A stretch of 64,000 bases of DNA, taken from NCBI RefSeq assembly GCF_000807925.1, contig NZ_JRVC01000006.1:1-64000 (forward strand). The letters are read 5' to 3'. Source of the stretch: Novosphingobium subterraneum (GTDB lineage Bacteria; Pseudomonadota; Alphaproteobacteria; Sphingomonadales; Sphingomonadaceae). Below are positions 35,268 through 37,465 of the stretch, in pieces. Numbering within the stretch: position 1 is the stretch's first letter; each line of letters starts with the position of its first letter. Made by a program: the position numbers and the translations under genes. The notes below the pieces were generated by a model, which saw only the letters and a list, made by a program, of their open reading frames with translations, ran no database searches and had not been told where the DNA came from.

Positions 35268-35843
35268 TTAGAAGAAGCCCAGTGTCTGAACGAACAACCA
35301 CACGCCGGTGGCAACGAGCAGCGCGGCGGCAACCATTCGCACGATGTCGAGCGGAACACGCTTGATCAATTCGTTGCCGAAGATCACGGCTGGGACGTTG
35401 GCAATCATCATGCCAAGCGTCGTACCGGCAGTGACCGCGATGGCATCGTTGAAGCGTGCGCCCAAAGCAATCGTGGCGATCTGCGTCTTGTCGCCCATCT
35501 CGACGATGAAGAATGCCACCAGCGTAGTGAGAAATGCGCCGTAGCGCGAAGGCTTGGGTGCTTCGTCCTCGTCCATCTTGTCCGGCACCAGGGTCCACAG
35601 GCCCATGGCGACGAAACCGATGGCAATGGCGAAGCGGAACCACTGGCCATCGAGGAAGGCGGCGGCGGTCGCACCGAGCAGGGCAGCGAGGAAGTGGTTG
35701 GCAAGCGTTGCGCCAAGGATGCCGAGGACGATCGGCAGCGGCCTTTTGAACCGGGCGGCGAGGATGATTGCGAGCAATTGCGTCTTGTCGCCAATCTCGG
35801 CGAGCGCGACAATCGCGGTGGACGTGCTGAAGGCTTCGAGCAT
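35268..35843 (-). CDS. TMEM165/GDT1 family Mn2+ exporter (UPF0016)
   Basis: A 191-residue protein with six predicted helices and two copies of the family motif E-x-GD-(K/R)-(T/S): ALAEIGDKTQLLAI near residue 14 and FFIVEMGDKTQIATIAL near residue 112, separated by an acidic loop (DKMDEDEAPKP). Relatives move Mn2+ or Ca2+; bacterial members export manganese. An upstream yybP-ykoY riboswitch strongly supports Mn2+ export. ATG 35843 gives the usual N-terminus; TTG 35849 is an alternative. Confidence 0.95.
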   Translation of the reverse strand: MLEAFSTSTAIVALAEIGDKTQLLAIILAARFKRPLPIVLGILGATLANHFLAALLGATAAAFLDGQWFRFAIAIGFVAMGLWTLVPDKMDEDEAPKPSRYGAFLTTLVAFFIVEMGDKTQIATIALGARFNDAIAVTAGTTLGMMIANVPAVIFGNELIKRVPLDIVRMVAAALLVATGVWLFVQTLGFF

Positions 35844-35854
35844 CGACAATTCCG

Positions 35855-35905
35855 GGGCCGGGCGGAGCGATCAGGCCAACGACAGCTTACCCCTCCGCCC
35901 GGCCC
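35855..35905 (-). promoter_or_regulatory. Riboswitch expression-platform hairpin
   Basis: On the minus strand GGGCCGGGCGGAG pairs over 13 bp with CTCCGCCCGGCCC, ending 11 nt before the ATG. Its loop (35876-35886, GCTGTCGTTGG) can instead pair with CCAATGACAGC (35919-35929), which overlaps the 3' strand of aptamer stem P1. That gives a competing-stem switch. There is no T-tract, so control is probably at translation. Confidence 0.65.
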
Positions 35906-35921
35906 GGACGATGGGTTCGCT

Positions 35922-36047
35922 GTCATTGGTCTCGCCCGGTGGACAAAAGTCCTGCCGCCTGCGCCATGGTCTCTCGACCAAGCATGTTGACGCTGAGGGC
36001 CGCGCCAGGCCCGAAAACCTGCCAGCGGTGGCTACTCCCCAAATGAC
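35922..36047 (-). promoter_or_regulatory. yybP-ykoY manganese riboswitch aptamer
   Basis: The minus strand carries the conserved features: GGGGAGTAGCC (from 36040), an internal GCGTCAACATGCTT, and GGGCGAGACC (about 35928-35937). P1 closes the structure by pairing GTCATTTGG (36047-36039) with CCAATGAC (35929-35922), with one bulge. The two conserved internal loops (GGGGAGTA and GGCGAGACC) form the Mn2+ site in known structures. The downstream gene is a GDT1-type exporter, the expected partner. In this class metal binding turns expression on. Confidence 0.92.
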
Positions 36048-36145
36048 GTGGGGTGCCGTTAGCTGCGTATGGCGTGGCATGCAAGTGCAGGCTATGGGCA
36101 GTAGCAACGCTATCCGACCACGGGTGCGCCGGGGAAAGTCAGATC

Positions 36146-37465
36146 GTGAAGCGCATTGCCGTTGCCGTCCTTGCCTGCAGCATTGCGCTGCCCGCGCAGG
36201 CCGAGGAAGGCCCGTGGACGTTGTCAGCCTCGGCGCGGCTGCGTGTGGAATCGATCGGCGGGCAGTTCCGCCCCGCCCCTGCCCCCGCAACCGACACGAT
36301 GGTTTCGCTCAGGACCGAGCTTGCCGCCGGCTATGATGCCGGGCCGGTGCGGTTCAATGCCGAGCTCTGGGACGCGCGGGCTTGGGGACAGGACGCGCGC
36401 TCTTCAGCGAACACTGGCGAGGTCAACGCGCTCGAACTGGTGCAGGCGAACATGGCGGTGAAGCTGGCGGGCAAGAGCACGCTGACGCTGGGGCGCTACA
36501 CCCTCGACCTCGGCAACCGGCGCATGGTGGCGCGTCAGCGATTTCGCAATACGACCAATGCCTTCACGGGCGCGCATCTTGAGCTGGACGGGGGCAAGGG
36601 ACGCAGGCTCGACCTGATGTTCGCCCTGCCCCACCAGCGCCTGCCGGACGACGTTGCGGGCATTCGCGAGGACCGGGTGAAGTGGGACCGCGAGAACTTC
36701 GACGTCATGTTCTTTGGCGCGCATGGTACGCTGCCGCAGGTGCTTGGTGGGACCCTTCAGCCCTATGCCTTCGGACTGATCGAGCGCGACGGCGCGGGGC
36801 TGGCGACAGCGAACCGGCGGATCGGCACGGTGGGCGCGCGCCACTTCGTGAAGGCAAGCGCCGGGGCTTGGGACCACGACGTCGAAGGCGCGGTCCAGTT
36901 CGGCAAGGCACGGCGGACATCGGGGGTGGCGGATGTGACCGATCTCAACGTGTTCGCCTGGTTCGTCCACGCCGATGCCGGCTATACCTTTGCCGGTGGC
37001 TGGAAGCCCCGCGTGGTGGCGATGTTCGACGCCGCGAGTGGCGATAAGGGCAGCGCGCGCAAGTTCACCCGTTTCGACACGCTCTATTCGGCGCGGCGCT
37101 TCGAATTCGGGCCAAACGGGCTTTACGGGCCGTTTCGGCGGAGCAACATCGTCTCGCCCTCGCTGCGTCTGGAAGTGACTCCCTCGAAGCGAACCGACGC
37201 TTTCGCGGCGTGGCGCACGGCCTGGGCCGAGAACCGGCGCGACCAGTTTGCCGCGACCGGGGTGCGTGATGCCAGCGGAGCCTCAGGCAGCCTCGGCGGG
37301 CACCAGATCGAAGGGCGCGTACGGCACTGGATCGTGCCGGGGCTGCTGCAGGTGGATGGCGGAGCGGCAGTGCTGTTCAAGCGGAGCCTGCTGCGCGACG
37401 CGCCGAATGCGCCGCCGACCGGGAATACGACCTACGGCTATTTGGATGTCACGCTGACGCTCTGA
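36146..37465 (+). CDS. Alginate-export-type outer-membrane beta-barrel protein
   Basis: A 439-residue protein with a signal peptide (RIAVAVLACSIALPAQA, cleavage after AQA). The mature part is rich in alternating beta strands (TLSASARLRVESIGGQF, VRFNAELWDARAWG) and has the block TLGRYTLDLGNRRMVARQRFRNT, typical of the alginate-export domain family of porin-like barrels. The C-terminal strand ends YGYLDVTLTL. GTG 36146 follows GGGGAAAG. The substrate is unknown; no exopolysaccharide genes are adjacent. Its upstream region overlaps the divergent riboswitch promoter region, and its last 28 bp overlap the convergent DUF1289 gene. Confidence 0.88.
   Translation: MKRIAVAVLACSIALPAQAEEGPWTLSASARLRVESIGGQFRPAPAPATDTMVSLRTELAAGYDAGPVRFNAELWDARAWGQDARSSANTGEVNALELVQANMAVKLAGKSTLTLGRYTLDLGNRRMVARQRFRNTTNAFTGAHLELDGGKGRRLDLMFALPHQRLPDDVAGIREDRVKWDRENFDVMFFGAHGTLPQVLGGTLQPYAFGLIERDGAGLATANRRIGTVGARHFVKASAGAWDHDVEGAVQFGKARRTSGVADVTDLNVFAWFVHADAGYTFAGGWKPRVVAMFDAASGDKGSARKFTRFDTLYSARRFEFGPNGLYGPFRRSNIVSPSLRLEVTPSKRTDAFAAWRTAWAENRRDQFAATGVRDASGASGSLGGHQIEGRVRHWIVPGLLQVDGGAAVLFKRSLLRDAPNAPPTGNTTYGYLDVTLTL

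Follow-up and report, generated by a model that had tools for sequence, protein, structure and literature searches.

A putative strand-exchange platform in the manganese riboswitch leader of a GDT1-type transporter gene from Novosphingobium subterraneum

Gene and aptamer at the locus

The window analysed is a 64,000-nucleotide stretch of contig NZ_JRVC01000006.1 from Novosphingobium subterraneum, and all coordinates are those of its forward strand. A GDT1/UPF0016 cation transporter gene encoding 191 aa lies on the minus strand (35268–35843; PF01169, 3.6e-41, 139.8 bits), with an ATG start at 35843 and an in-frame TTG at 35849 as well. The domain match agrees with a preliminary description of this DNA, which had called the gene GDT1-type. 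The seven best named matches of the protein are all from Novosphingobium, the top one being from N. jiangmenense with 92% identity. An MmcB-like DNA repair gene (PF06319; 34730–35230, minus strand) follows directly downstream and may share the transcript. On the other side lies a divergent gene (36053–37465, plus strand) whose product has a porin domain of the alginate-export type (PF13372); its longest reading frame begins at the 5' end of the riboswitch and its true start is probably further in.

The riboswitch lies directly upstream of the GDT1/UPF0016 gene. A covariance-model search of the minus strand matched RF00080 (Mn2+ riboswitch, yybP-ykoY) at 35869–36053, a segment comprising the aptamer and part of the platform and covering model positions 1–177. 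The score of 47.0 bits exceeds the gathering score (45) by just 2 bits; E was 3.7e-10 when 12 kb were searched and 2e-09 for the whole window. This is the sole RF00080 match in its genome. The leader is a further member of the yybP-ykoY family, rather weakly scoring, and we infer that it binds Mn2+; the Mn2+ riboswitch named in the preliminary description is borne out by a match above the curated cut-off. The aptamer hallmarks and P1 stem that it had read from the letters are also present on the minus strand. They comprise the conserved motif GGGGAGTAGC (36031–36040), the conserved core CGTCAACATGCTTGG (35978–35992) and the conserved 3' part GGCGAGACC ('lead'; 35928–35936), each assigned from the sequence and the RF00080 model position. 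The 5' strand (p) of the switch helix P1.1, GTCATTTGG (36039–36047, minus strand), is complementary to CCAATGAC with one bulge; the role of P1.1 is taken from the available text of two reports on the family (PMC11087558, PMC6754395).

In a review (PMC7380456, cited from an excerpt), a UPF0016 gene is given as standing under a yybP-ykoY riboswitch in 328 of 333 screened bacterial strains having one. The association is thus already established and common, and the window does not differ from it. The pairing of gene and aptamer was expected here; the platform is the added part.

Pairings of the platform in the window and the genus

The strands of the platform all lie on the minus strand. Strand a, CCAATGACAGC (35919–35929), consists of the 3' strand of P1.1 (its first eight nucleotides, 35922–35929) and an extension, the last three nucleotides (AGC), which belong to the a:a' pairing alone and lie outside P1.1. 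It is followed by the pyrimidine-rich linker c, CCCATCGTCC (35906–35915), and by b, GGGCCGGGCGGAG (35893–35905), the 5' arm of a 13-bp hairpin whose 3' arm is b', CTCCGCCCGGCCC (35855–35867). The loop of this hairpin holds a', GCTGTCGTTGG (35876–35886), the complement of a, which forms 11 bp with it including one T.G wobble. In the open fold the partner of c is the second half of b together with the G's that follow; this helix is termed H2, and its 3' side, GGGCGGAGGGG (35890–35900), is made up of the second half of b and the next four nucleotides. In the other fold c is able to pair with the start region.

Both the 11-bp pairing and the GC-rich hairpin with a' in its loop were found where the preliminary description had placed them, the hairpin ending 11 nt before the ATG at 35843. 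No obvious Shine-Dalgarno sequence had been seen there. The first five nucleotides after b' are nevertheless a weak one, CGGAA (35850–35854), at a place where many relatives have CGGAG. Only two of the 127,980 11-mers on both strands of the window pair fully with a when G–T is allowed, and one of these is a' itself. Tested against 300 dinucleotide-shuffled versions of the downstream 130 nt, a:a' and b:b' each reached p = 0.003, the floor of the test.

Covariation was assessed in Novosphingobium. Of 92 RF00080 matches, 91 were used as loci, a 33-nt partial match being omitted; 83 of the 91 have a GDT1 motif downstream and are referred to as GDT1-linked leaders. The alignment holds 77 distinct platforms, obtained from the 83 leaders by removing four loci by hand as near-duplicates or for misplaced landmarks (L037, L070, L083 and L090) and two duplicates. 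When the pairing of each strand with its own partner was compared with permuted partners over the 83 leaders, in which L090 and L083/L088 retained misplaced landmarks, z was −16.4 for a:a', −19.1 for b:b', −8.4 for the part of a beyond P1.1 and −10.8 for H2 (0/500 permutations each). On 26 representatives of less than 75% identity the values were −9.7 (a:a'), −10.9 (b:b'), −5.5 (a beyond P1.1) and −5.0 (H2), with 0/2000 permutations. P1.1 itself was without covariation in the genus (z +2.9 for the 83 leaders and −0.1 for the 26 representatives), because its 5' strand hardly varies. For the same kind of reason, an almost invariant strand, pairing of the aptamer CGGGCG with b' gave no covariation among the genus leaders (z −0.2). 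When P1.1 is open, the 'lead' has the L3/b' region as a possible partner; the L3 part of this pairing is missing in the clade of the window.

Among 3397 column pairs of the 77 platforms, the first three ranks of APC-corrected covariation were taken by 19:59 and 18:60 (a:a') and 45:83 (b:b'), and ranks 6 and 7 by the H2 pairs 32:45 and 27:52. Column 45, in b, therefore covaries with two partners, 83 in b' and 32 in c; the triple 32/45/83 reads GCG in 61 of 77 platforms, ATA in six and other combinations in ten. The fold with a:a' and H2 was 86.8% paired, with 165 doubly changed cells against 59.9 after shuffling (0/500) and 11 pairs with a double change against 8.5 (15/500). For b:b', 92.0% of the positions were paired and 58 cells were doubly changed against 14.4 (0/500). 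The register of H2 had been picked after inspection of the alignment. The complementarity of a and a' is accordingly kept in the genus leaders through compensatory change, and the competing-stem switch proposed earlier is strengthened in that a:a', H2 and b:b' each carry such changes and share strands.

As far as sequence comparison can demonstrate pairing, it does so for a:a', H2 and b:b' and for the two alternative partners of b. With column 45 covarying with both c and b', the helices look like alternatives and a pseudoknot is not needed. A single column with two covarying partners makes swapping strands visible from sequence alone.

Proposed switch and its output

We consider it probable that the leader of the GDT1-type exporter gene joins a yybP-ykoY Mn2+ aptamer to a platform that works by strand exchange. 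In related riboswitches Mn2+ is reported to stabilize P1.1 against a competing downstream strand (PMC11087558, PMC6754395; excerpts). In the absence of Mn2+, P1.1 would be weak and a would leave it to pair with a', while c would pair with the second half of b; a:a' and H2 would form one long nested hairpin, dismantling the 3' side of the aptamer. In the presence of Mn2+ the aptamer would lock P1.1, leaving a unavailable and a' in its loop, and b would pair with b', so that this hairpin ends immediately ahead of the weak Shine-Dalgarno sequence and the start codon. Since b:b' excludes H2, a switch would result in which a is held by P1.1 or a' and b by c or b'. Folding of the isolated platform segment put the combination of a:a' and H2 at the lowest energy for most of the first 15 loci, the window included, with exceptions such as L016 and L020; when each state was forced, a:a' came out below P1.1 with b:b' in 72 of 77 platforms. 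The unconstrained fold of the 101-nt window platform contained b:b', not a:a'; as this shorter segment yields b:b', the balance between the folds appears close for the window.

Translation of the exporter gene is the likely output, because b' is separated from the start codon by 11 nt and a purine-rich stretch stands right behind b'. In the genus the start codon is mostly 10–16 nt after b', and the leaders have a purine-rich stretch right after b', CGGAG in many. It is quite probable that Mn2+ turns the gene on, as would be expected from the mntP leader of Escherichia coli, where Mn2+ is reported to switch on translation initiation (PMC9603457, PMC11647493; excerpts). The E. coli K-12 leader (NC_000913, L173) resembles that of the window in the order a, b, a', b', Shine-Dalgarno, start codon (dinucleotide shuffles: a:a' p 0.017, b:b' p 0.007, joint 0.003); it differs in that the gene belongs to the MntP and not the GDT1 family, that the stretch between a and b is longer and that the sequences are different throughout. 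The predicted Mn2+-bound fold does not itself explain switching on, as b:b' is flush against the ribosome site. Two further ideas on the start region were rejected. In the genus, free b' is a poorer anti-Shine-Dalgarno strand than its shuffled versions, its pairing with the site being 0.080 against 0.142 (higher in 12 of 78). A leader peptide from an ATG inside a would run in the GDT1 frame in some relatives and is out of frame in the window, as judged by eye.

Other readings concern the ligand-free form and the level at which the switch acts. The preliminary description had combined a:a' and b:b' in a pseudoknot; both pairings are real and they cross each other in the window. Against a true pseudoknot as the functional ligand-free form stand the covariation of H2, which uses nucleotides of b:b' and excludes its full length, the two covarying partners of one column and the nested fold, which needs no crossing. 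We set it aside as the working form and regard it as most improbable, while a transient or partial pseudoknot of a:a' and b:b' without H2 is possible. A transcriptional switch, with a:a' as an intrinsic terminator and Mn2+ acting to antiterminate as in the members from Lactococcus lactis and Bacillus subtilis, finds some encouragement in L183 and L098, where six and five T follow the a:a' hairpin in a terminator-like manner, as if a terminator had been kept or gained there; in these two the a:a' fold should therefore be OFF. T also makes up 36% of the 8 nt after a' over 74 genus loci. In the window, however, a' is followed by CCTGATCG and a search of the leader gave no terminator-like site; the earlier remark that no T-tract follows either hairpin holds. 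The mean T-score after a' was just 2.36 over the 74 loci, and a score of 4 was reached in only 7 of 180 loci even when the tract was allowed to begin inside a'. Moreover, the richness in T is partly explained by pairing of this stretch with the aptamer CGAGAC, the complementarity being above that of shuffled sequences in 56 of 75 loci and at the 5% level in 27; such pairing would dismantle the 3' side of the aptamer in the open fold and is missing in the clade of the window. The lack of a T-tract and the low T-score in the genus make a terminator unlikely in the window, and it was rejected there and for the genus at large and kept for a few relatives (L183, L098); as an account of the switch studied here it is very unlikely. 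L. lactis yybP and the Xanthomonas oryzae riboswitch (PMC11087558, PMC6754395), as far as the available text describes them, are like the proposed switch in that Mn2+-stabilized P1.1 withholds its 3' strand from a competitor, and unlike it in that the competing hairpin is described as a terminator. An output through Rho or decay, in which the message would go untranslated in the long a:a' hairpin state and be exposed there to Rho or double-strand cleavage, the other state being protective, is not very likely, though less remote. The E. coli mntP leader is reported to be Rho-terminated, with partial relief by Mn2+ (PMC11647493; excerpt), and C outnumbers G within b' for 30 of 31 family representatives (31 of 34 strands, trimmed by eye, with L146, L166 and L185 omitted).

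The direction could also be reversed: with c reaching over the Shine-Dalgarno sequence and start codon as an extension of it, the b:b' fold would block translation, and Mn2+ would turn the gene down. When a was absent, the predicted fold of the window paired c (CAUCG) with CGAUG, which includes the start codon, and TCCGG with CCGGA around b:b', and it looks like an OFF state. The complementarity of c to its own ribosome site was slightly above that to the sites of others (1/500; 30/2000; 19/2000 on 26 representatives). Opening the ribosome site cost 6.61 kcal/mol in the a:a' fold against 7.47 in the b:b' fold, b:b' being the cheaper in just 26 of 77 platforms; a first version of the site-access folding had given no consistent difference (0.41 against 0.37 unpaired; 49/82). 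For E. coli mntP the same measure had the wrong sign (6.48 against 8.19, with P1.1 there held by two pairs only) and may thus be uninformative. Pair counts between c and the ribosome site gave no clear covariation (8/500, 10/500 and 30/500, with 423/500 for further pair types), so that covariation of c with the Shine-Dalgarno sequence is not convincing. The function of the gene also speaks against reversal: GDT1 proteins tested in bacteria are reported to be Mn2+ exporters, for example Vibrio cholerae MneA (PMC7380456; excerpt), and mneA of V. parahaemolyticus to be induced by Mn2+ (PMC13274385; excerpt), so an OFF switch makes little sense. With E. coli mntP, of the same layout, reported as ON, reversal is unlikely, and strand exchange with Mn2+ as the activating ligand is retained as the likelier reading.

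Distribution of the layout

RF00080 was surveyed at E ≤ 0.001. In the genus sample there were 88 positive genomes out of 149, with 40 above the cut-off; the figures were 56 of 149 genomes of the family, 27 of 147 of the order, 39 of 289 of the class and 89 of 299 of the phylum samples.

The layout was tested on one representative per family, the downstream 130 nt being shuffled 300 times at the dinucleotide level; of 35 representatives, L186 was not placeable. Joint complementarity of a:a' and b:b' reached p ≤ 0.05 in 30 of 34 families, namely 18 of the 20 from Alphaproteobacteria and 12 of the 14 from elsewhere in the Pseudomonadota, the failures being L146, L168, L185 and L192; some b' ends were set by duplex folding and are approximate. 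At p ≤ 0.01 the counts were 13/20 and 9/14. Tested singly, a:a' passed in 16/20 and 12/14 and b:b' in 12/20 and 9/14. An earlier version of the test, which took every third genus locus and in which b:b' was weaker, had given p ≤ 0.05 for a:a' in 15 of 25 family-level, 13 of 17 order, 17 of 23 class and 6 of 12 phylum loci, and for b:b' in 7/25, 12/17, 13/23 and 6/12, respectively. The sequences differ outright across families, for example GGGAAGTTGGC/GCCAACTTCCC in L161. Even so, b is G-rich and b' C-rich, which may reflect pairing with the aptamer GGCG or a signal of its own.

The platform, which the preliminary description had called unusual, thus recurs in most of the families tested, E. 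coli mntP included; as far as can be judged from these comparisons, the strand exchange appears widespread rather than unusual and not pseudoknotted. We suggest only tentatively that the order a, c, b, a', b', start codon is a Mn2+ riboswitch platform of the Pseudomonadota as a whole, whose architecture is kept while its sequences change and in which b exchanges c for b'. A GC-rich hairpin would then stand flush with the ribosome site in the Mn2+-bound state, and the output would depart from the rule that a paired site is off, the hairpin being permissive or helpful or the direction being inverted in sphingomonads. The layout extends to a well-used model, E. coli mntP, and the three a:a' pairs outside P1.1 offer a handle on how terminator-less Mn2+ riboswitches act, a point on which the available literature text is vague. 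In the literature searched, to which the founding paper of 2015 on mntP and alx of E. coli did not belong, no publication announcing the layout was found.

The E. coli alx leader (L172) looks different from that of mntP: its fold has one short hairpin at GAGACC and then another, with seven T, ahead of the Shine-Dalgarno sequence. Within the genus, seven loci (L008, L009, L010, L011, L014, L015 and L030) have a gene of the sodium/calcium-exchanger type behind the riboswitch (PF01699 for L008; by eye for the remaining six) and a similar a/b/a'/b' layout; in L030, b:b' seems, by eye, to be kept with changed sequence. In L007 (1501–1680 and downstream) the gene directly behind the RF00080 match, which has the same platform, is purple-acid-phosphatase-like (PF00149, PF16656) and not a transporter gene, and the same genome also has a GDT1-linked copy (L065).
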